This document shows positions 20,565 to 61,665 of a stretch of 64,000 bases of DNA, one piece after another. This DNA is from Branchiostoma floridae (lineage: Eukaryota; Chordata; Leptocardii; Amphioxiformes; Branchiostomatidae), in assembly GCF_000003815.2 (NCBI RefSeq), contig NC_049987.1, positions 21,916,125 to 21,980,124 on the forward strand, given 5' to 3'. Within the stretch, counting starts at the first letter, position 1, and the number at the start of each line of letters is the position of its first letter. Below the pieces are notes generated by a model, which ran no database searches, was not told the DNA's origin, and worked only from the letters and a program-made list of their open reading frames with translations. The translations under genes were made by a program, and so were the position numbers.

Positions 20565-21568
20565 AAATGCCACTCTCAATTTATCAAACCAGCTTCTCAT
20601 TTACTGGAATCCCTAAGGACCATTTGCCTGACCACAAAGCACATTTGACAGATATTCCCAATGACTAATTTTATTTATTTTGGTAATATAATTATGTTTT
20701 GCTTTTTATAGTTCCTATAGGCTAGAGATGTATGCTTTCTCTTTTCCTAGCAATGTAGGCTAAAGGTATCCCTTTTTTTCTGCTATCATTGAAGCACCCC
20801 CCATTCAAACCACTGTCAATTACAATCAAATTACATCATTTTCACCTAGCACTTAGTGACTGCGTGTCATATTGTTTTGTTTTCTATTGTTGATATCTAC
20901 ATTATGTATATCTCTACCTGACACACCAACTTGGTCTTGCCTATACTAGTATGTAGGTACTGTATCCCTTGTGGGATTTTTGCCAAATCACATGCCAAAA
21001 GTATCCATTCACACGTAAGTTACTGTCCATGACCTTTTTCTCACCTATCTGAGCAGGTGTGGTTCCTCCCATGGGCCATGACGTTTAACGCGGCCCACTC
21101 CCCGTCAACAGCTCATTTATTACGACACATATGGGACTCTCATTGGGAGGATCGTATGCCGCGTTGGCAGCCAATAATGTCCAATTTTTCCAGCCTGAAA
21201 CTTTCTTGTTGATTTTTTTTTGCTGGGAAGCTAAGGGTTAGTGAAACGTCTTGGGGAGACGTCTGACTTCCTGTATTTAAGACACACGATCTGGGAGAGT
21301 TACTGTCACTACGCACAGGTGTAACTTAAGGAGGATCTTCGATGTTTTTAAGACAAGACAAGCGAGACATTCCGTCTCAGCTTCCTTGCGATGCGTGGCA
21401 GGGGGACTAGAGGGATCAAATGATGTGTAAACCCATTGTTACTTGTAGTAGTGTACAAACCAGCCGCGGTTTGCGTAAAGAATTAACTAAACACAATCGC
21501 GCGCGTGTGACCAATTGATCCGTTTTTTGAAACAGGTAGCGATATGTGTACACGGTGGTGCGACTCAC
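20565..21568. other. Intron or downstream region of the mannosidase gene
   Basis: On the minus strand this follows the splice donor of the mannosidase exon, so it is expected to be intronic. No further exon of the catalytic domain was found here, so the first intron must continue out past any recognisable sequence. Confidence 0.5.
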
Positions 21569-22153
21569 CTCTTTTATTTTGTCCCGTTTCATCTTGGTGT
21601 CCTGGTCGGTAGGCTCGCCACCGCTCACCCCTACAGCCCCGGTGTCCACCCTGTTCACCTCAAGAAGCTCCTTATTTTTCTCTTCCTGTTTCCTCTTTTC
21701 CTCCTCCTCTCTCTGCAGTTGGAGCTTCGCCTTGTCCTGTTTTATGTCGTTTTTGACGTCATCGTCCCCAAACTTGTTCAGGACTTGCCTGGCCTCCTGA
21801 AGGACCTTCTCCTGCTCGATTTCGAGCTCCTGTTTCCCTCGGGACTTGGGAGAGTCCACCACGTCTCTGGCGACGTTCTCGACGGGGTCGAAGTCGTGCT
21901 GGTGGAACTTGAGTCCCTCCACCGGAGGCGAAGCCGGCGGCTGCGGCCGGAAAATGTCCCCGGGTTCGCCGGGCCCCACCACCTTTTCGCGGAACTCGGG
22001 AAGGAAAAACATGGCGCCCACGAGGACGAAGAGAAAGGCAGCGACAATCAGCAGCACCATGAACTTCTCGCTCATGCGAAGGGTCTGTCTCTGCGGCACG
22101 GGAACACCGTTCACGTAGCGCCGATGCGTCGGGAGCAGCGGTGCCGCCGCCAT
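21569..22153 (-). CDS. MAN1A: Golgi mannosyl-oligosaccharide 1,2-alpha-mannosidase, first coding exon
   Basis: Class I alpha-mannosidases (GH47) trim Man9GlcNAc2 to Man5GlcNAc2 in the Golgi lumen. This exon encodes 195 residues of the type II membrane protein: a short cytoplasmic tail, one transmembrane anchor (about residues 31-51, starting EKFMVLL and ending FFLP), then a charged, Glu/Lys/Gln-rich stem (about 110-190). It ends in KMKRDKIKE at a GTGAGT donor (21568). In MAN1A1/MAN1A2 the equivalent 'REK.KIKE' precedes 'MMKHAW', the start of the catalytic domain. The SEKF-anchor segment and the 'GGEP' motif resemble MAN1A2 most. The start at 22153 was chosen because AAGATGG is a strong context and the upstream in-frame opening is only GTG. 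The catalytic exons are not in this window, so activity cannot be judged. The ATG lies in CCAAGATGGCGGC, a YY1-like motif. Confidence 0.85.
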
Positions 22154-22405
22154 CTTGGTTCCACCTGGTACCCACAAGTCACTGCGAGAAGTCACGAGTA
22201 GTAGGGCATGTGCACTGCGAATCGTTGTCGAGAGGTGTCCAGTCTACATGTACGTTGCTATGAAATGGGAAGTTTGTTCAGTACAGGTTGCTATAGGGAA
22301 TTCGATGAGAAATTTGGCAGCGACATCTATGTGGATGATGAAATGTTACCTTGGCAACTTTTATCGAATACGCTATGTTTAGAAGTTAACAAGATCGATT
22401 AAGAC

Positions 22406-24108: not shown

Positions 24109-26715
24109 TTAACCGTAGATACTCGTCATCATCTGTTGTAACTTTTTATAATAGCTATAGGCCGTTCTGTGATCGCCGAGTGTCATCCAACAGATACCTA
24201 AGTTGTTCAGCAAGGCGGCAATGTCAGGGTGCGCTGAACTCTTGCCATAAATCCTCCACATCATCTGCAGTGACCACTCATAATAGCTAACAGCCTTTTT
24301 GTGATTACCAAGGTTACTCCAGGCGTTAGCTAAATTGTTCAGTGACGTTGCAATGTGGGGATGTGCAGCGTTGTCGCCATAGATACCCCACTTCATTTGC
24401 AGTGACAATTCATGATAACGGATGGACTTTTTGTGATTTCCAAGGTCGCCCCAGGCGGTACCCAAGCTGTTAAATGAATGGGCAATGTCGGGATGTGCAG
24501 TACTTGTACCATAAATGCTCCGTTTCATCTTGAGTGACTGTTCATAATAGCCGATGGCCTTTCTCTTATCACCATTTTTTCTCCATGCCCCGCCCAAGTT
24601 GTTAAGTGACAAGGCAATGCTAGGATGGGGAGTTGTCTTACCATAGGTACTTCGCTTAACCTGTAGTGACTTGTCAAAATAGTCGATGGCTTTTCGGTAA
24701 TCACCGAGCTCACTCCAGGCAGCACCCATGTTGTTAAAAGATTGGGCGATGTCAGGATGTGCATTATCTTCACCATAAATACTTAAGCTCATTTGTAGCG
24801 CCTGTTTAAAATAATTCATGGCTTTTCTGTATTCACCAAGGTCCATCCAGCCATACCCTAAGTTGTTCAGAGCCCCAGCGATGTCGGGATGTACAGTGCT
24901 TTCACCGTAAATGATTCGCATAATCCGTAGTGATTGTTCAAAATAATTGATGGCCTGTCTATGATCTCCAAGGTAGGTACAGGCGCCGCCCAAATTGTTA
25001 AGTGTCCCTGCAATGTCAGGATGTGCAGTGCCCTCGCCGTAAATACCTCGCTTCATCTGCAGCGACTGTTCTTGATAGCTGACGGCCTTTCTATAATTAC
25101 CAAGATCACCCCACGCGGTGCCTAAGTTGTTGAGTACACCTGCAATATCTGGATTTGCCGTGTTCCCACCGCAGAAACACTGCATCATGTGTAGAGACTG
25201 TTCATAGCATCTGATGGCTTTCCTGTGATCACCAAGGTTCGTCCAGGATCCACCTAAATTGTTAAGTGACTGAGCAATATCAGGATGTGCGGTTCCTTCA
25301 CCATAGATATCCAGGTTCATCTGTAGCGCCTGTTCATAATAGCTGACGGCCTCTCTGCAATCACCAAGGTCTATACAAGCACAGCCCATATTACTAAGTG
25401 ACATAGCAATGCTAGGATGAGCGGTGTTCTCACCATATTCAGATAGATTATTCTGTAGTGCACGCTCTTGGTACTTTTTAGATTTTGTGTAATCACACAA
25501 ACTTCTGTATACCTCTGCTTCTAGTCTGGCGGATTTATCAAATAGAGTTGACTGCAGTTCCAATAGCGGGTCATTGGCAAGTTGTGATATGAAATACTTC
25601 AATGGTCTTGCTGTGTAGTAGTATCTCATGAGCTGTTTAGTATTCATAAAGTAGAATACTTTCTGCAGTTTCTCAGTTTCTGTATCTGTCAGCATTGCTG
25701 ATAAAGCTGACATATTTTCTACTTGACCACCATTGTTTATGTATGTCCGCAACCTTAGTTCTGCTGAGATACTGACTATTACAATCAGATGATGAGCGCT
25801 CTCGTTATTGATTACCCCGTACTTGTTCAACTTGTGAATAGTCTCCCAGATTGTCGTCGGTTGTATCTTACGAAGTAGCGCCCAACAAGCCACTGCAAGG
25901 CTCGAAAATCGATAAATTTCTTTCTTCACATTCAGCAGACTGGATGTGAGAAGCTTAACTTTAAACGTTGATGCATTCTCACTTAGTAAGGATTTAGCCA
26001 TCAACAAAGGGAGTTTTCCGTCATTATCTTGAAGGTGTTGACACAATAGAACGGTATACACATCGACCAAACGCTGGTCTCTTGTGATCAAACACACATT
26101 CCCCAATGTATTGGCAAGATGGTAACCTTTCTTCAAATGGAACGTAAGGTCGCCTTTGAGAATGTCGGTCATCTTGCTTGGTGTTTGAATCAATTCGCTT
26201 CTTACACCACCGCTGTTGCCCCTGCCCAGTGGAGTCTTACATGCATGTGGCATGGCTCCATCTAAAGAAAACCCACGTGGTGTTACGTTGTCGTAAAACC
26301 AGTCATCGAGTGGGTCGGCTGAGTGGAAATCATTGAGCGACTTAATTGCCATGGCCGGGAGAATGGTCTCTCCCAGATTGATCACTTTGAGATGCAGATA
26401 GTGAGTGAGGTTTCGGAAGTACGTCACATTATTTCTGTTTCCTTCTCTATCAAGATGGCAAATTCCAGATCGGAGTACGGGGTTACCAGTCCCGTGGCCT
26501 GTGAACCCAAACCTATCATTGCGTACTTACAAGGAGGTGAGCCCATTACCTCTATGCATTCATCTACAACTCCAGAAATAAACGCATTTCGCTGTTGAAC
26601 GATGGTCTCAAACAATGCTCGGATTGCTTCGGCCCTCTTCCTCTCTACCTCATTCATGTTCGGGTCGTCATCATCAAGGCTATAAGGGTCTATCTCCTGT
26701 TCGATTCTTTTGATC
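24109..26715 (-). CDS. Nucleotidyltransferase-DUF294-like-TPR fusion protein, 5' end in gap, one frame break
   Basis: The frame enters from the gap at 26715 and continues to a TAA-type end at 24109. The N-terminal part (26715-26450) holds the fingerprint GLGSQATG.....YSDLEFAIL. This matches the GS...SD.(D/E) core of polymerase-beta-like nucleotidyltransferases, closest in form to PII-uridylyltransferase/DUF294 proteins. A conserved middle follows ([27 protein letters not shown], then an alpha-helical stretch with LNKYGVI and AELRLRTY like the DUF294 C-terminal helices). The last 440 residues are ten TPR units of exactly 44 residues (about 25428-24112), consensus HPDIA..LNNLG.AW.DLG..RKAI.YYEQSLQM...IYG. 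No intron is visible in about 2.6 kb. One base appears missing near 26445: the domain runs off to a stop at 26424, and the next frame resumes at the expected residues (DREGNRNN then [12 protein letters not shown]). Sequencing error or a recent mutation are both possible. The second motif acid is Glu rather than Asp, so catalysis is uncertain. Confidence 0.8.
24112..25428 (-). repeat. Ten tandem 132-bp TPR-coding repeats
   Basis: The 3' half of the nucleotidyltransferase-TPR gene is a DNA-level tandem array of ten 132-bp units, each one 44-residue TPR. Unit length is constant, with no insertion or stop in any unit, which argues for selection on the protein. Units differ at many positions, so the array is not freshly amplified. 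Confidence 0.85.
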
Positions 26716-26815
26716 NNNNNNNNNNNNNNNNNNNNNNNNNNNNNNNNNNNNNNNNNNNNNNNNNNNNNNNNNNNNNNNNNNNNNNNNNNNNNNNNNNNNN
26801 NNNNNNNNNNNNNNN
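26716..26815. other. Assembly gap (100 N)
   Basis: A run of exactly 100 N, probably a placeholder of unknown size. It hides the 5' end of the nucleotidyltransferase-TPR gene. Confidence 0.95.
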
Positions 26816-28394: not shown

Positions 28395-28589
28395 TCCACG
28401 TCGCCTGGCTATATGATAATATCTTGTAAACAAAATTCACCTTCTTCGGGTATTTACTTATCCCTTATTTACTTGCTTCATCCCTTGCGAGACATACGGC
28501 CATGACTTTTGTTTCTTCCATCTGGGTCTGTCCTGCGCTACAGTCTATAGCTCTATGACTACCTGACAACCAACAACATTGTTTTACAT

Positions 28590-28920
28590 GTTCCTTCCGG
28601 TTTCAGATCTGGTCACTTAACACAGACGGCTGTGCACTTACTAACTAAGAGGTGGTTCAAGGCCATGAACGGCGGCGAACTGACTGGAGCAGTGTTCATT
28701 GACCTGTCCAAGGCCTTTGACACACTGGACCATTCCATTCTTCACCAGAAGATTTCCAGATATGGCATACAGGGCCACGCTTTTGACTGGTTCCAGTCAT
28801 ATCTCACTGGAAGAAAACACGGTACTTCAATCAATGAAGCAACCTCCGAGGTCCACCAAGTAACATACGGGTACCTCAGGGATCTATACTAGGACCCCTG
28901 CTGTTCATCGTTATCAACGA
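28590..28920 (+). pseudogene. Reverse-transcriptase fragment of a non-LTR retrotransposon
   Basis: The frame reads SGFRSGHLTQTA, then GAVFIDLSKAFDTLDHSIL, then YGIQGHAFDWFQSYLTGR. These are the finger and catalytic A-region signatures of LINE reverse transcriptases (first Asp in FIDLSKAFD). After VTYG near 28868 the frame shifts by one, and the expected PQGSILGPLLF continues in another frame to about 28915. The YADD box and everything beyond are absent, so this is a dead, truncated insertion. Confidence 0.85.
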
Positions 28921-31711: not shown

Positions 31712-32271
31712 TTAGAAATCACATGTAGTGCAATGTATATAAACTTAAGAAATAAGAATAGAAAATGCACAACAAACTTTCATCACGAACACATTTTTAT
31801 TAGCGTCTACGGCCTTTTACACACTCAGATCCCCCATTATCCTTCTCTGTATCTGTAGAGCATTTTGTACATCAGACGAGTTACATACTTCTTATCCAAA
31901 TCTTATCTTCTTCAGGTATCTGCTCAACATCAGATCAGATTCAAACCCATCTCAGTTGCTATATGGTTAAAACCCACTACTACAAAAATGCATTCCTAAC
32001 GTGCTTTTTACCAGAGGATTTTTTTTTCTTCATACAAGATTTTCCTTTAACAAGCCGCTTCTGGGCCTCAAACATGCGTCAAATCATTCTATGTTCCTAC
32101 AGAAGTTTGTACTGTAAACTGTAAACATTAAATGTTATAGAATCTTACATCTAGTTTTAATTTTCCCTTCTTTTTAGAACACTTTTTCTTGCAATACATT
32201 TATGTAGATCTAAAAGACTAAAACTAAGACAAGGCTTATCATTCAAGCAATTAATAACGGTGTACCGAAAG
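31712..32271. other. Intergenic, no gene seen
   Basis: AT-rich; ORFs under 65 codons without support. Confidence 0.4.
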
Positions 32272-32324
32272 TGCGAAAAGGAACGAAAAGGAACGAAAAG
32301 GAACGAAAAGGAACGAAAAGGAAT
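32272..32324. repeat. 10-bp tandem repeat GAACGAAAAG
   Basis: Five to six head-to-tail copies of GAACGAAAAG, nearly perfect. Confidence 0.85.
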
Positions 32325-32750
32325 GGAGTATGAAGCAAACTTAAATAAAATCAATGAGAATATAAGGAATCGGTACTGCGGGCGTTAGAAGCCTATGAAA
32401 CGTGTTTTATTTTACCGAGAATTTGACATTATCAAATTTTTACAGCGCTGTTTCAGGCTGTTGTTTTTGTGTGGCTAAATTATTCTTTGAAGATCTGCGA
32501 AATACAAAGAAACGGAACTGAGATAAGAAAGTAAGGACTAAAATTCATTGGGTGGTAGATGAATATCGATTATTATACATTTTCAGGATGAGGCAAGATT
32601 GTAACGTTGTTGTTGTATTTGGGTGGCTTTTATTCTCCCTAGAGGGGAGCGCCGCATGCAAATGACCCGCGAAATCCGGTCAGGAAAGATATGCTAATAA
32701 ACTGCTGCCCCACGAGCATGACAGCTCCTTTTAACATGGCCAACAACATG

Positions 32751-32850
32751 NNNNNNNNNNNNNNNNNNNNNNNNNNNNNNNNNNNNNNNNNNNNNNNNNN
32801 NNNNNNNNNNNNNNNNNNNNNNNNNNNNNNNNNNNNNNNNNNNNNNNNNN
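32751..32850. other. Assembly gap (100 N)
   Basis: A placeholder-sized gap in intergenic sequence; no gene crosses it visibly. Confidence 0.95.
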
Positions 32851-35259: not shown

Positions 35260-38200
35260 ATGAACGTAACGAACGATGAACACCCCAAGGCAGTTCTCCG
35301 TGGCCTGAACGAACTGAGGGAGCAGGCAGAGCTGACTGACGTGGTTCTGGAAGTGGAAGGGAGAAGGTAAGTTGGGTAAGTTTGGGGGAGGGTGCAAGAC
35401 AAGGGGGCCGGGCCGGGGGAACAGTATTTTATAATAAAGGTTTTGGATACTTCCTCAAATGATAGAATCTTTGTTCCTATCAAGATGTCAACCACAACCT
35501 CTTTGCTGCAATCTTTAACACATAATTCTTTTACTCAATCAATAGACCAGCCTATGGTTGCCAGACACTTGCAAGACTCATTAACATTTAAGGGCCAAAA
35601 TGTCCCCATCCCATATGAAGGGAAAGTTAGATAGAACTTTATTGCACGACAATTGTACATGGTACAAAGTATGGCAACAACTGTTACATAAAGTACAAAA
35701 TAGAGGTATAGGATAAAGCTTAACATCATAGTTAACATAACAATAAGGGCTAATATGCATAATTCATTCATATAGTATCATAATGAAGTAGGCTAATCAT
35801 TAGCTTCAGTATTCTTTCTAATAGCAAAGCAGTCCTTGATATATTTGCCTATTTTTGCATTATGGGAGTGAGGGTGTATTCAAGAAAACTCTACAACCAG
35901 CCCCTAGATTAGACCCTGATAAACCCCACTCCATAGATATTTAATATTGAGATTAGGCTGAGGGTCCAGTATCCAGGCTATGGATGGACGTTTAATGTAT
36001 AAAATGGTTGTTAATCTGGCATCGCCCTGAAAACTTGGGGTATTTGTTACCACTGGAAAAATGACAATGGAAGATCGACTGGAAATATGATCTCTTCTAG
36101 TTTCCCCTGCCATCGCGCCGTCCTGGCCTCCTGCAGTCCTTACTTCCGTGGCATGTTCACCAGCGGCTACGCGGAGGCCAAACAGGAGAGGATCAGCATC
36201 CAGGGTGTCAGTGAGGTAGCCATGGCAACCATTCTCGGCTATGCCTACACCGGCTGCCTACAGATGGAGCCAGACCAGGTCCAGGCTGTGATGTCTGCAG
36301 CCAGACTGCTACAGGTGAGGATGCTGCTGAGGCCACGGTGGTATGGTGGTATCATTTTGGCGTAAATATTATAGGGTGTTCAGGGCTCGAAATTCACTTT
36401 GGGGATTAGGTCCACTGGTGCACCCAGCTTAAGAAATTATGTGCACCAAAAATTTTTTGGGTGCACCACTTAAATTGAAGTAATAACCTAGTAATAAAAC
36501 TTAGTTACAAGCTATCAAATTCTAAAACAAGTACCATGATAGACATTTTTATTATATTTCTAACACTCATGTCAAGAATATGATGTATACCTGTATACTT
36601 TGACAGTTTGATATCTTTACATACAAAAACCTAAGAATATTTGAAAAAAATTGGGTGCACAGCTTCAATTTTGGGTGCACCTGGGTGCACATGCACCGAG
36701 TATTTCGAGCCCTGGTGTTTGACTCAGAACACAGAGGTCTGGGGTTCGAATACCCTAATAAAGTATGTCATCGATGTTGTGCCCTTGGGAACTGCACTTT
36801 TTACAACTTTCTATGATGGTTGACACTGGTAAAAATGAGTGCCTAGCTTCTGTTCAGGATATCCCTCTTTAATACATGTATTAAATAGGATGTTAAATGG
36901 AGGTCCCGTGTTTGAGGAGAACCACTTTGTGTACGCAGAAGGACCCCTCCACACTTATCGAAAAGAGTTTACAGGTCCTTCTCCATGTGATCATTAGTGG
37001 ATCAAATTAATAGGTCCGGATATGCAGCTTGTACTGTTCAATACAAATCTGGTGTGTTACACCATAAGGGTTTTCTGGGTATTTAAAACTAACAAAGGTT
37101 CTTGTGTTTCCTTACATACATGTAGACCATTAGGTGTAGTGAACTGAATGTGCATGACTATGTCTATTATTACCAGGTGGATTTTGTATGCTGTAAGGCT
37201 GCAGAATACATGAAGAACCATCTAGACGTGTCCAACTGCTCAGATGTGTTGATGTATGCTGACATGCTGGGGGACCAGGCCCTGATGGAGTCCTGTAGTA
37301 CGTATATCGCATCCAGGTCAGTCTAGAACTGCATGATACTCTGACTCAGGGAAGGAAAGGAATTAGTGATCTCGATCCAGTTTTAGCTCACTGAAAAGTT
37401 AGTGGTCGTGACAGAGAGGACAGACGTTATGTACAGTATTTAGTACATGTTCATTGTACCAGGGAAATTTCCCAAGGCTCTTTTTGACAAGCACAATGAA
37501 GCCATGGCTTAACGTCCGGTCCTAAGGACTGCATCAGTAGCGTGCATGTCGGGTGAGCGACACATGTACAGCCGGAATTGAAATTAATGCATCTAGTTCC
37601 AGAGGCTGCTAAACCACTGGGCTACGCACACTATCGGGGCTGTCTCCAGTCACCTTCCATATAGAGAATTTGGATGAGTGCAAAATGCATAAGATTTAGA
37701 TTTAAAATGATAGTCTTCTGTTCTATTTTATGTAACTTTCACAGGTTCAACCAGGTGTCACTGCAATCATCCTTTCTCCAGTTACCACTTCCCCTGCTGC
37801 AACCACTGCTCAACAGGGATGATCTCATGACCAACTCAGAAGACGACGTTGTGCATGCAGCTCTAAGGTGGATTGAGTTTGAGAAAGAACGCTTGCAGAA
37901 CCTTCCTGTCCTCTGCAGTTCCTTCCGTCATTCCTTTATTAGCAGGGAAATTCTCACAGAGCTTGAGAGCAAGCGTCCGTCAACAGACATCAAGTTGGTA
38001 TACAGCGACAGTACAGCCCAGCGGTTAGGACAGACACGTACTGAGATGCAGATTTTTGTTAGGCGCGACTGGCTGGAGATTGCTTCCCCTTATTCTGCTC
38101 CATGCTACGACCCTTTGAGTCGTAAGTTGTACAAGATGGATCTGCCTGACCGCTTGTCAATGACTAACGTTTCAATGGTAGCAACTCCGGATAACGAACT

Positions 38201-39976
38201 TTACTTGGCAGGACACATAAAAAGTGATAGGAAGTTGAGTTTTCGGGAAGCCATGAACGATCCACAGCTGCAGAAGGCCTTCTACCAATACAATCACCTG
38301 CTGAATACCTGGGAATCCAGATGTGAGATGATTTCACCAAGAAATAAGTAGGTACTTTGTCTATGTTTTCAGTAAGGAGAAACATCTTGTTTTTAATGTA
38401 AGCTACATTGCTTTAACTGAGTCAGCTTACAGATGTGCCCTACATACATGGTTGTATGTTGTATGTTGTCATTCTCATATAGGATATTTAGTCATAGCTG
38501 ACGGTGCAAGGGCTTAGGCCGATAACTAATATAGTATTTTACCAAAGTCAATACTGACCAAAGGGACTTTACGAAAGAATAGGCCATTGTCTTATGTCTA
38601 CATTTTAAAGATGCACAAAAAAAAGCATTGGAGACTTATTTTGCATATGTAGCGGACTTTAGTATTGCCATGAAAAACAATTGCTCATCGTTGCAACATT
38701 TATGTTTAGGACTGCATTATAGATATTGATAGCATTAAACATAAGTGTATATAAAGGACCGTTAGGTATAGTGAATTGAGTGTGCAGGGAGAGTAATATG
38801 CTGTATTTGTTTATTACTACCAGATATTACTACCATTCTGTATGTACATGTTTGTAGCTGTAATGAGATCTAAGGTTGTGATAATCCTTTACTATTTTCC
38901 CCAGGTGTAGTCTGGTGTATCTGAAGGGGTACATCTATGNNNNNNNNNNNNNNNNNNNNNNNNNNNNNNNNNNNNNNNNNNNNNNNNNNNNNNNNNNNNN
39001 NNNNNNNNNNNNNNNNNNNNNNNNNNNNNNNNNNNNNNNNNNNNNNNNNNNNNNNNNNNNNNNNNNNNNNNNNNNNNNNNNNNNNNNNNNNNNNNNNNNN
39101 NNNNNNNNNNNNNNNNNNNNNNNNNNNNNNNNNNNNNNNNNNNNNNNNNNNNNNNNNNNNNNNNNNNNNNNNNNNNNNNNNNNNNNNNNNNNNNNNNNNN
39201 NNNNNNNNNNNNNNNNNNNNNTGCTGTGTGCCTGGATGACAGCATCTATGTGCTGAGTTGGAAAGATTGCTACTGCTTCAGCCCCACAGAGACTTCGTTG
39301 GAATAAAATTGCGGACGCACTTGGATACCCAGTGGACCGACAGGTTGTCGTATACGAGCGGCGCATCTACAGTCTCGTGGAGAGGTACGAGACTGAGGCA
39401 TTCGTACATGTGTACAGCCCTGAAGACAACACATGGAAACCCTCTGGTAATGGCATGAGTTTTACCTGCGACTATGCAACGCTGTTAGTGTACAACAGTA
39501 TCCTGTACCTTATCACAGTACCTGTCTCAGATGTGCATACCCACTGGACATTGCTGCAAAGGAGAGATTGGCCTCCGATTAACATGTACAAGTACCAGAA
39601 ATCCAATGACTCTTGGTCAAAGCAGGACAGGAAAGACAGCATGGTTCCGCCCATCTCGCGGTGGATGTGTGCTGGGAGTACCACTATCACAAAATGCGTA
39701 TGCCTGGTGGCGCCGATGATACCAACCGCTCTGGGAGATGCAAGTTCATTCAAGGACAAACAGAAATTCATGGAAGGAAGTTCATTCCAGGACAACCATT
39801 TATGAGCTGAACTGGACATGTATGGTGAAGAGGGTGAGAACTCTTCCACAGATTCCTTCAACCATGAAATTATGCCAGACGAGCTATACAACAACAGTGA
39901 GGACAGCAGTTCAGACCAGGAGAGTGCTGATGGTGACGGAGACAGGGAGGTTGGAAATGATGATGGGGACACCTGA
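35260..39976 (+). CDS. BTB-BACK-Kelch (KLHL-type) protein, five exons visible, gap and frame break
   Basis: KLHL proteins are substrate adaptors of Cullin-3 ubiquitin ligases. Exons: 35260-35366 (ATG; BTB start, LTDVVLEVEGRR), 36101-36314 (BTB core FPCHRAVLAS..YFRGMF), 37177-37316 (BACK start VDFVCCKAAEYM), 37745-38347 (rest of BACK, ALRWIEFEKERLQNLP, then linker) and 38905 onward (Kelch repeats, CSLVYLKGYIY), entering the gap at 38940 and resuming at 39222. All junctions are GT-AG and keep frame. One extra T near 39298 breaks the frame: TETS runs into LE-stop, whereas skipping one base gives SWNKIADALGYPVDRQV, a normal Kelch-blade sequence. The frame then meets TGA at 39803-39805. After it the same frame stays open 56 more codons, acidic and Ser-rich (NSSTDSFNHE.., DSSSDQESADGDGD), to a second TGA at 39976. 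The true end is therefore either 39805 or 39976. An hAT-like MITE sits in intron 2. Confidence 0.85.
36381..36714. mobile_element. hAT-like MITE, copy 2, in the Kelch gene intron
   Basis: Ends CAGGGCTCGAAATT and ATTTCGAGCCCTG with subterminal 'gggtgcacc' motifs. It is 334 bp long and opposite in orientation to 20207-20564. GTGTT occurs immediately on both sides, a possible remnant of target duplication (shorter than the 8 bp normal for hAT). It lies wholly within intron 2 and does not touch the splice sites. Confidence 0.7.
38940..39221. other. Assembly gap (282 N) inside the Kelch exon
   Basis: Hides about 94 codons of Kelch repeats if the size is correct; frame across the gap cannot be verified. 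Confidence 0.95.
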
Positions 39977-45796: not shown

Positions 45797-46527
45797 TCTC
45801 AAAAGAGCAAAATATGCATACATAGTTTCAGAAAATTATTGCGCACCCAAAAAAGTTTGTCCGAAGGAAATCGGACATTGTATCGCGGCATCTGAATTTT
45901 GAGGTCAAAAACCGTGTTTTTGGCTCAGAAGAGCAAAATAAGCATTTTTGATAGAAAATGTGCATACATAGTTTCAAAAAATTATTGCGCACCCAAAAAA
46001 GTTTGTCCGAAGGAAATCGGACATTGTATCGCGATATCTGAATTTTGGGGTCAAAAACCGTGTTTTTGGCTCAGAAGAGCAAAATAAGCATTTTTGATAG
46101 AAAATGTGCATACATACTTTCAGAAAATTATTGCGCACCCAAAAAAGTTTGTCCGAAGGAAATCGGACATTGTATCGCGATATCTGAATTTTGGGGTCAA
46201 AAACCGTGTTTTTGGCTCAGAAGAGCAAAATAAGCATTTTTGATAGAAAATGTGCATACATAGTTTCAGAATATTATTGCGCACCCAAAAAAGTTTGTCC
46301 GAAGGATATCGGACATTGTATCGCGACATCTGAATTTTGGGGTAAAAAACCGTGTTTTTGGCTCAGAAGAGCAAAATAAGCATTTTTGATAGAAAATGTG
46401 CATACATAGTTTCAGAATATTATTGCGCACCCAAAAAAGTTTGTCCGAAGGAAATCGGACATTGTATCGCGATATCTGAATTTTTGGATGTTTTTGCCTC
46501 AGAAGAGCTCATTAAGCATTTTTGTAA
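45797..46527. repeat. 146-bp tandem array, about five units
   Basis: The anchor 'gcgcacccaaaaaagtttgt' starts at 45841, 45987, 46133, 46279 and 46425, exactly 146 bp each time. Complete units differ by only a few substitutions. The first unit lacks about 21 bp ('catttttgatagaaaatg' region) and the last decays after 46480. Because 146 is not a multiple of three, overlapping 62-codon ORFs appear in successive units; these are by-products, not genes. Confidence 0.95.
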
Positions 46528-51239: not shown

Positions 51240-51754
51240 GTACACCTAATATATTTTACCCAAATGGCCTGCGACATCTCCAAAAAAACACAGGGATCTA
51301 ATGACTACACTGAGTGCTGACGCCGAACTTTTTGATGTTTCCCCTCCCAGCCTAGATTAACTCCTTATCCCAGAAAATTAGTCTGTCATTTGCAGAAAAA
51401 CAAAATGCCATTCTTACTGCCTCATGCCACGTCATCCCTCTATATTCATATTTCGTATACCCGAATGAAACGTCTGTTGTTTTGTTTGCGTTTTCTATGC
51501 TATTCTTAATAATTCTGTACCTGCCCTCCCCCGAAGGAATAGTTCGTGCCAACTCTCAAATCTAAATTGACCAATCACATCTCATTATTAGCATAATGAT
51601 ATACAGTCAGAATATTAAACCTATAATACCACATATGTATTATGTTATACATATAAATATCTATACACACTGCATTTTGCCTGGTGATAAGCGAAAAGAT
51701 CGCAGTCATGGTAAACACAACCAGAAACTGTCGCCACCTAGAACTCGAGACATA

Positions 51755-51915
51755 TCTTCAGGAAGCAGTAACGTCTTGAGTCTCATCTTCATGGAGCAGT
51801 AACGTCTTGAGTTACATCCTCAGAAAGCGGTAACGTTTTGTGTGACATCTTCAGAAAGCAGTAAAGTCTTGAGTCGCATCCTCAGGGAGCGGTAATGTCT
51901 TTTGCTATATCTTCA
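51755..51915 (+). repeat. 31-bp minisatellite in the left arm, unit 1
   Basis: Five units of the form 'tcttcaggaagcagtaacgt' plus 'cttgagtcgca', with variation at a few positions, running into the gap. Equivalent arrays lie at 53560-53720 and, inverted, at 61420-61665. Confidence 0.85.
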
Positions 51916-53559: not shown

Positions 53560-53720
53560 TGCAGGAAGCAGTAACGTCTTGAGTCGCATCTTCATGGAGC
53601 AGTAACGTCTTGAGTTACATCCTCAGAAAGCGGTAACGTTTTGTGTGACATCTTCAGAAAGCAGTAAAGTCTTGAGTCGCATCCTCAGGGAGCGGTAATG
53701 TCTTTTGCTATTTTTTCAAC
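53560..53720 (+). repeat. 31-bp minisatellite in the left arm, unit 2
   Basis: Nearly identical to 51755-51915; five units, then 'tttgctattttttcaacagt'. Confidence 0.85.
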
Positions 53721-60925: not shown

Positions 60926-61419
60926 CATGAATACCCGTATATAAAACTATCCATCCCTCCCCCTCGCTAACGCCCGTAGAAAGCCGTGAAGGAGGCTGGG
61001 AGCAGCAGACAAATTCAATCAACACGGAGCTTTGAAGTCCCTACCTACTGTATTAGTTGGGCTTGTTGCTGACGTGTACTTTTCAGACATGCTTGTTCCT
61101 GAAATGTTTTTCCTGACATATTATACTTAAGGATTCACCCATCTTTCTGTGTAAAATGTCATTAGGGACAGTAAATAACAATAAGTATTAATGTAACCCA
61201 CATACATACAAAGAAGCAGTCTGTCTGGTTTGAAACTGGTGTTGTCGAAAGGACACGCCCAAACCATTTTGTTGATGAAAAAAGCTACCTCAGAATTGGA
61301 GGCGCAAGCTATTGTATGTAGGGAAAACAATAAATATTATGTAAAAATTCAGATATCCCTACTCACGCGCGACCTCTGCAGCGGTTCCAACCGACCTGCT
61401 AGGACAAGACGTTGCCGCT

Positions 61420-61665
61420 TCCTGAAGATGCGACTCAAGACGTTACTCCTTCCTGAAGATGTCACTCCAAACGTAACCGCTTCCTGAAGATAAAGCAAAA
61501 GACATTACCGCTCCCTGAGGATGCGACTCAAGACTTTACTGCTTTCTGAAGATGTCACACAAAACGTTACCGCTTTCTGAGGATGTAAGTCAAGACGTTA
61601 ACGTTACTGCTCCATGAAGATGCGACTCAAGACGTTACTGCTTCCTGAAGATGTGTCTCGAGTTC
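61420..61665 (-). repeat. 31-bp minisatellite in the right arm
   Basis: Inverse of the arrays at 51755 and 53560, here with about eight units, so copy number differs between arms. Confidence 0.85.

Follow-up and report, generated by a model that had tools for sequence, protein, structure and literature searches.

Proteins that join a DUF294 nucleotidyltransferase region to tetratricopeptide repeats (TPRs) have been described in bacteria. The NEX2 family of Neochlamydia combines DUF294 with C-terminal TPRs, with an N-terminal F-box in the majority of members and an OTU part in some (Domman et al. 2014, PMC4209131). Enzymes that attach AMP to proteins, the AMPylases, are grouped in PMC8097203 into four families: Fic, SelO, GS-ATase and DrrA. 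Among animals, a comparable expansion of a repeat-bearing enzyme family is that of coral TPR-CHAT, for which PMC12314368 reports 276 and 304 copies formed by tandem duplication. Here we analyse 64,000 nucleotides of the lancelet Branchiostoma floridae (contig NC_049987.1, positions 21,916,125 to 21,980,124; "the window"), in which the minus strand carries a broken copy of a predicted nucleotidyltransferase followed by a TPR array. We propose, with roughly even confidence, that the intact members of its family are TPR-guided enzymes that transfer nucleotides to proteins, most likely as AMPylases similar to DrrA/SidM, and that the family was gained once from an intracellular bacterium and expanded probably in host-microbe conflict.

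The window copy belongs to a large gene family. Three whole-genome searches of the 513-Mb assembly scored at least 58, at least 92 and at least 97 loci, and their union gives at least 102 distinct related loci on 15 contigs, a lower bound that is probably near the total because the last two lists have 89 loci in common. An earlier reading of the letters, made without database searches (the sequence-only reading), had suggested counting family members in the lancelet genome, and the count makes the feature more than chance. The loci include 23 on contig C7, 16 on C4, 12 on C12 and 12 on C174, the last a small contig of 0.46 Mb; six contigs of 17 to 34 Mb (C4, C7, C9, C15, C17, C19) carry 57 of the 102. 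Many copies are clustered and some are young, the smallest pairwise synonymous divergence (dS) being 0.056. The matched region is without a stop in 93 of the 97 loci of the third search, 27 copies were read as intact (L003-L029), and the number of repeats per copy ranges from 10 to 21 (28 copies counted). Two copies, G000:C174:170676 and C4:27733958, have open frames of 2152 and 2038 residues, far longer than the rest listed. An acceptor-like AG stands directly before the giant exon in most of 26 upstream regions, a conserved TPR-like stretch of exon size lies upstream in 19 of the 20 longer upstream regions (L017 has none), and several copies have a second short exon-like stretch further upstream. 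Because of these features, the family genes are probably not intronless, in contrast to what the sequence-only reading had held for the window copy.

The predicted catalytic core is kept throughout the family. The G-x11-D-x-E motif is present in all 27 intact copies and in all 31 rows of the family alignment A4 (six lancelet and 25 bacterial), and RG[FL]AFDG in 27 of 27 copies. All three predicted metal-site acids, the two of the motif and a third Asp, are retained in every intact copy; the loss of the catalytic acids across all homologues, which the sequence-only reading had named as refuting its enzyme claim, is not seen. The invariant columns of A4 are G85, S86, S96, D97, E99, D167, G179, L185, K274, R279 and R331. 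Over 416 core codons, the median nonsynonymous divergence (dN) is 0.10, the median dS 0.39 and the median dN/dS 0.27 (351 pairs among the 27 intact copies), and the core is under purifying selection.

The predicted enzyme class of the family rests on profile matches and is well supported. The intact paralogue L007 reaches 25.4 bits against DUF294 (PF03445, cut-off 21 bits), which bears out the nucleotidyltransferase/DUF294 assignment first made from the letters, and its Pfam matches also include NTP_transf_2. L028 (22.3) and L023 (21.1) pass the same cut-off, with the window piece just short of it at 20.4. The second model suggested at that stage, DUF294_C (PF10335, cut-off 22.5), stays below its cut-off: 17.8 bits in the longer window piece P0001, 19.3 in a shorter window piece, 16.3 in L007 and 17.0 in L023. 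Over the 31 family rows, DUF294 is matched at E 0.01 or better by 29, SidM_N by 19 (best 1.4e-6) and DUF294_C by 16 (best 4.6e-10). The profile A4 matches the solved chain of the DrrA/SidM AMPylase, 6yx5_B, with E 2e-11; the match scores 16.5 bits over residues 28-113, in the transferase, and 28.2 bits over residues 179-318, in the helical domain. Profile A2, built from 11 bacterial rows and the two window pieces, matches DrrA with E 1.8e-7. By whole-family profile, the closest solved enzyme is thus the DrrA/SidM AMPylase instead of the PII-uridylyltransferase to which the window copy had been likened. A direct search of the PDB with the window pieces gave nothing useful. For the helical part, PMC3710099 places DUF294_C among the families in which the R-x4-6-H RNase site of HEPN domains is not conserved.

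The variation among paralogues is concentrated in the TPR arm, at positions predicted to line its groove. Among 395 repeats, the entropy peaks at repeat positions 11, 18, 21, 22 and 40 (2.5-3.4 bits) and is below 1.9 at all others. When the LG of the repeat is set to TPR positions 7-8, these five correspond to TPR positions 2, 9, 12, 13 and 31, and four of them fall among the seven positions (2, 5, 9, 12, 13, 33 and 34) given in PMC1261162 as the most variable and concave. At the seven groove positions, replacement change amounts to 1.63 times the synonymous change of the whole array (1.42-1.81 by gene bootstrap), and at the rest to 0.58 times (0.53-0.65). The groove excess has permutation p values of 0.011, 0.002 and 0.0007 in three identity bins; the seven positions and the mapping were fixed before this test, with the entropy peaks already seen, and were later checked with PMC1261162. 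In codons that differ by a single step, the ratio at the other 36 positions, relative to their own synonymous change, is 0.52-0.60, with intervals below 1; it is 0.55 at 93% and 0.60 at 90% identity (upper bounds 0.74 and 0.71). The groove positions escape the constraint that acts elsewhere in the repeats. The groove also holds 1120 of the 1793 multi-step codon changes at 90% identity. In Neochlamydia (42 repeats), variation is not confined to the groove.

The same architecture is found in bacteria, chiefly in Chlamydiota (Neochlamydia NEX2), in Rickettsiaceae and the order to which they belong, and in Amoebophilaceae. P0001 matches 238 plasmid records, and 19 of the best 20 match solely from residue 281 on, that is, mainly in the TPRs; query cover of at least 80% is reached by one of the 238, Neochlamydia sp. 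S13 (E 6e-79), in a region with several DUF294 and TPR proteins that correspond to the NEX2 family (PMC4209131). The Neochlamydia protein P0005, scanned whole with Pfam, has DUF294, TPRs and an F-box-like match. In the same S13 region, an apparent single DUF294-TPR gene (L001:11-3788) is annotated as two adjoining pieces, and the next two family genes after it are separated by a gene for an IS4 transposase. A scan of genome contigs found 11 loci, all in records of metagenome-assembled genomes (MAGs), which come from Amoebophilaceae, Rickettsiaceae (where L031, from genome G002, is placed), two Alphaproteobacteria, a Cytophagales, Chlamydiae and a Gammaproteobacterium. Nine of these MAG proteins were scanned (L037 and L038 were left out): seven reach the DUF294 cut-off, L036 (20.7) and L039 (19.0) falling short, and six have TPRs above cut-off, with sub-cut-off matches only in L031 and L040 and none in the truncated L039. 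The named bacterial families that hold relatives are host-associated, chiefly intracellular lineages.

In a whole-genome survey, profile A1 matched 11 out of 232 Chlamydiota genomes at E 1e-30 or better and 34 at E 0.001. With these two thresholds, the numbers are 11 and 12 among 262 genomes in the order of G002, two and 29 among 241 genomes in the order of G001 (all beyond the two being at 8e-7 or weaker), and one and 49 among 369 genomes in the class of G009 (all beyond the one being at 2e-11 or weaker). These shares are biased upward because the seed genomes were included; in the order of G001 and the class of G009, every strongly matching genome is a seed. The control groups widely show weak matches of the DUF294 type, in open frames that are mostly 490-700 residues long. 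In the order of G002, one family match lies inside an open frame of 11,442 residues (G365:C17, near 32000-32839), with more family matches a few kb away. Two scans of viral contigs found no relative, and a viral origin was rejected on this ground.

The trees cover lancelet and bacterial rows. In the 45-row tree, the ten lancelet rows form one clade (100/100) inside a 24-row clade (99/94) with alphaproteobacterial and Cytophagales rows, the nearest being three rows from the order of G002 (93/74). When seven rows were dropped (long-branch rows and ordinary DUF294 proteins), the same picture was obtained, at 83/94 and 90/75. In approximately unbiased (AU) tests, for which the groupings were named after the first tree was seen, a tree that unites the alphaproteobacterial with the Cytophagales rows and leaves the lancelet outside is disfavoured (p 0.027). 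The tree suits a single transfer from bacteria, the direction of which we infer.

We propose the following mechanism for the intact members. A client protein would lie in the concave groove of the long TPR superhelix, and the domain of predicted polymerase-beta fold, with G-x11-D-x-E and the third Asp, would attach AMP taken from ATP to a hydroxyl-bearing side chain of the client, so that the client would bear AMP or possibly another NMP. The paralogues differ mainly in the groove; therefore, each probably selects different clients. We infer the transfer to protein, the nucleotide and the clients from DrrA and from the architecture. A single acquisition would have brought the family into the animal from an intracellular bacterium, in which it was an effector-like protein with TPRs, and an expansion to about a hundred genes would have followed, probably during conflict between host and microbes. 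Microbial conflict appears the likeliest setting because of the analogy with expanded repeat-bearing families such as coral TPR-CHAT and because the relatives are found chiefly in known intracellular groups, and the immune role suggested in the sequence-only reading remains conjectural, with new circumstantial support. A more specific version, in which the lancelet captured a TPR-guided AMPylase and made from it an immune repertoire of about a hundred genes, each diversifying groove recognising a different microbial or hijacked host protein that AMPylation inactivates, seems to us rather unlikely in that full form.

Several results weigh against this proposal, in its enzymatic, selective and historical parts. 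The A4 search that found DrrA also lists an apparently unrelated chain, 7w5z_O (E 0.001). A profile made from lancelet rows only (19 rows) has no DrrA match in the PDB, its sole match there being an MNT antitoxin at E 0.029; the link to DrrA therefore depends on the bacterial members. The families matched by the lancelet member L007 do not include SidM_N, and the six SidM_N bit scores available for bacterial proteins range from 15.8 to 19.3, all under the cut-off of 27. In the groove, the codons have raised synonymous change too. Ratios of 1.50, 1.64 and 1.45 with the array-wide proportion of synonymous change (pS) become 1.26, 0.91 and 0.86 with the groove's own pS, and when single-step codons alone are counted, again with own pS, the groove gives 1.08-1.55, the intervals including 1, for example 1.54 (0.79-4.29) at 93% identity and 1.08 (0.80-1.51) at 90%. 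Positive selection on the groove is therefore not upheld as a firm claim, and the groove may have lost constraint without it. In the tree, Neochlamydia as the sister of the lancelet is not rejected (AU p 0.085), and the sister group and rooting are uncertain.

Other explanations have to be weighed against this proposal, and the one that concerns history is the reversed direction, in which the family is old in eukaryotes and intracellular bacteria acquired it on several occasions for use inside hosts. It would fit bacterial holders that are chiefly of lineages known as intracellular, and a comparison limited to lancelet and bacterial rows. It would also fit the F-box of NEX2 members and the OTU parts of some (PMC4209131), as well as the F-box-like match of P0005. 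Against it, the bacterial rows are far more diverse than the lancelet rows, which form a clade among them in both trees at the support given above, and the weak DUF294-like matches, in frames of mostly 490-700 residues, are widespread in the control groups; we regard a reversed direction as somewhat unlikely. Contamination of the assembly by bacteria, or a mobile element in it, would be suggested by relatives that are bacterial and by copies on small contigs such as C174. The 57 loci on the six large contigs, the acceptor-like AG before most giant exons, the exon-like stretch upstream in 19 of 20 regions and the lack of any viral-contig match make this extremely improbable.

The remaining alternatives concern function. 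If the family serves the animal's own regulation by protein modification, its copy number and groove variation would reflect many endogenous clients, and a core under purifying selection, a groove in which positive selection is not proven and window TPRs of the nephrocystin-3 type would all fit. TPRs of this type occur in ordinary animal proteins too. About a hundred copies, many of them clustered and some young, with variation focused on the groove, speak against this explanation, which we consider unlikely; large, clustered, young families with focused variation have the usual look of conflict families. A sensor like the CD-NTases (cGAS/DncV-like nucleotidyltransferases), in which the TPRs sense a ligand and switch on the synthesis of a free second messenger, would come from the superfamily to be expected from the DUF294 and NTP_transf_2 matches, and the variation of the groove would agree with a diversified repeat array used for sensing. 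The sequence-only reading had raised CD-NTase families as candidates, and this idea finds no support: the Pfam and PADLOC matches listed include no model of a CD-NTase or of a CBASS (cyclic-oligonucleotide-based antiphage signalling system) cyclase, and PADLOC contains cyclase models. The closest solved relative of the family is instead a protein AMPylase, helical domain included, and such a sensor is quite improbable. It is very improbable that the transferase fold is a catalytically dead scaffold, merely carried along with the TPRs: the window copy is indeed frame-broken between the first two acids and the third, but the three acids are present in all intact copies and family rows, and the core has the low dN/dS given above.

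The features of the window copy are collected in Table 1. The layout described in the sequence-only reading stands as regards the GS..SDLE fingerprint, the conserved middle and the ten TPRs of exactly 44 residues, a spacing found in all nine intervals between them; it fails as regards "one intronless frame", since two frames are used. Frame B, which holds the GS-x10-D-L-E fingerprint stretch (26460-26513, minus strand), ends at a TGA at 26426-26424, and frame A is open from 26526 to 24109 on the minus strand, with P0001 counted from 26448. Because the catalytic start and the remainder of the protein, third acid included, occupy different frames, the window copy is broken: the frame changes a short way ahead of the TGA. 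It is also truncated at the N-terminus. All 27 related loci that were read carry the stretch broken here in a single frame. When the window was searched for the lost N-terminal part, the only match with E < 1 was at 26714-26661. The window TPRs are strong matches (TPR_10, 216.5 bits, Pfam). Against the other copies, the median dS is 0.98 and dN/dS 0.205 (about 300 codons), which indicates an old paralogue that was therefore long under constraint before breaking, if the break is real; it may be a recent mutation or an assembly error.

Table 1. Features of the nucleotidyltransferase-TPR copy in the 64-kb window (positions within the window).
Feature	Position	Strand	Evidence
First half of predicted nucleotidyltransferase domain (frame B)	26427..26714	-	Translation; Pfam DUF294 20.4 bits, E 5e-4
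G-x11-D-x-E predicted metal-site motif	26463..26507	-	Sequence; motif present in window piece P0002
Rest of protein (frame A, P0001): second transferase half, helical middle, TPR array, stop 24109-24111	24109..26448	-	
Codon of third predicted metal-binding acid (D of RGFSLDG)	26260..26262	-	Frame A; matches column D167, invariant in 31 rows
Helical middle resembling DUF294_C (P0001 residues 171-265) and helical part of DrrA AMPylase	25654..25938	-	DUF294_C below cut-off; family profile to 6yx5_B 179-318
Ten tetratricopeptide repeats of exactly 44 residues	24115..25434	-	Repeat spacing; Pfam
100-N assembly gap removing N-terminal part of window copy	26716..26815	.	Query for missing N-terminal part

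Elsewhere in the window, a 113-residue open stretch at 28551-28892 (plus strand) contains GAVFIDLSKAFDTLDHSILHQKI and resembles a reverse transcriptase fragment of the long interspersed nuclear element (LINE) type, as we presume from the motif. Probable exons of a BTB-kelch-type gene lie at 37665-38351 and 39257-39805 (plus strand), the first with a BACK domain (51 bits) and the second without a Pfam match. A tandem array with a 146-bp unit occupies 45809-46484 (4.6 copies, 97% match), and a similar 31-bp tandem unit occurs at 51747-51901, 53562-53704 and 61405-61653, one of the three on the opposite strand. Long open frames overlap on opposite strands at 21416-22243 (minus) and 21491-22201 (plus); the minus frame contains the hydrophobic MVLLIVAAFLFVLVGAMFFL and has no Pfam match.

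If our proposal is true, about a hundred genes with a constant catalytic core and a variable groove would form a readable recognition repertoire in an invertebrate chordate, and client recognition could be tested directly. The animal would moreover have taken over the effector architecture of an intracellular bacterium, and an animal family of polymerase-beta-type AMPylases would be new beside the animal members that PMC8097203 describes.

Among known systems, NEX2 resembles the lancelet proteins over the full length and has the identical domain order, DUF294 and then multiple C-terminal TPRs. It differs in its repeats of 42 residues, compared with 44 in the lancelet, where the proteins form an animal multigene family with probable introns; no F-box or OTU part is among the matches listed for the giant exons of four lancelet paralogues, the complete 5' exons not being included. 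DrrA/SidM is linked by the family profile, which matches both the transferase and the helical domain, and by the G-x11-D/E-x-D/E motif given in PMC8097203, which is found in all intact copies and family rows; the lancelet proteins differ from it in their TPR array, and the lancelet-only profile misses it. We know of no TPR array reported for DrrA. Ordinary bacterial DUF294 proteins give weak matches to the same profile in frames of mostly 490-700 residues; in the order of G001, with G001 and G004 left aside, none of them scores as much as 30 bits, and three of their rows are set apart by a long branch. The MntA-type antitoxins (MNT) share a weak nucleotidyltransferase-motif match (six of six rows in NCBIfam, best E 8e-4; PDB E 0.029), but their model is small (106 positions), and L007 reaches 16.5 bits against a cut-off of 60. 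Coral TPR-CHAT, as described in PMC12314368, likewise combines an enzyme domain with a long TPR array in an expanded family, but there the order is TPR and then a CHAT domain of protease type, whereas the lancelet has a nucleotidyltransferase. The TRADD-N expansions of Branchiostoma (PMC8195603) were rejected as a counterpart, since they carry WD40 and not TPRs or a nucleotidyltransferase. Among the papers listed in a literature search, with subscription journals mostly outside it, none was, judged from title and abstract opening, about an animal DUF294 protein or such a lancelet family. The architecture itself is known from bacteria; what appears to be new here is its occurrence in an animal, expanded and with a variable groove.

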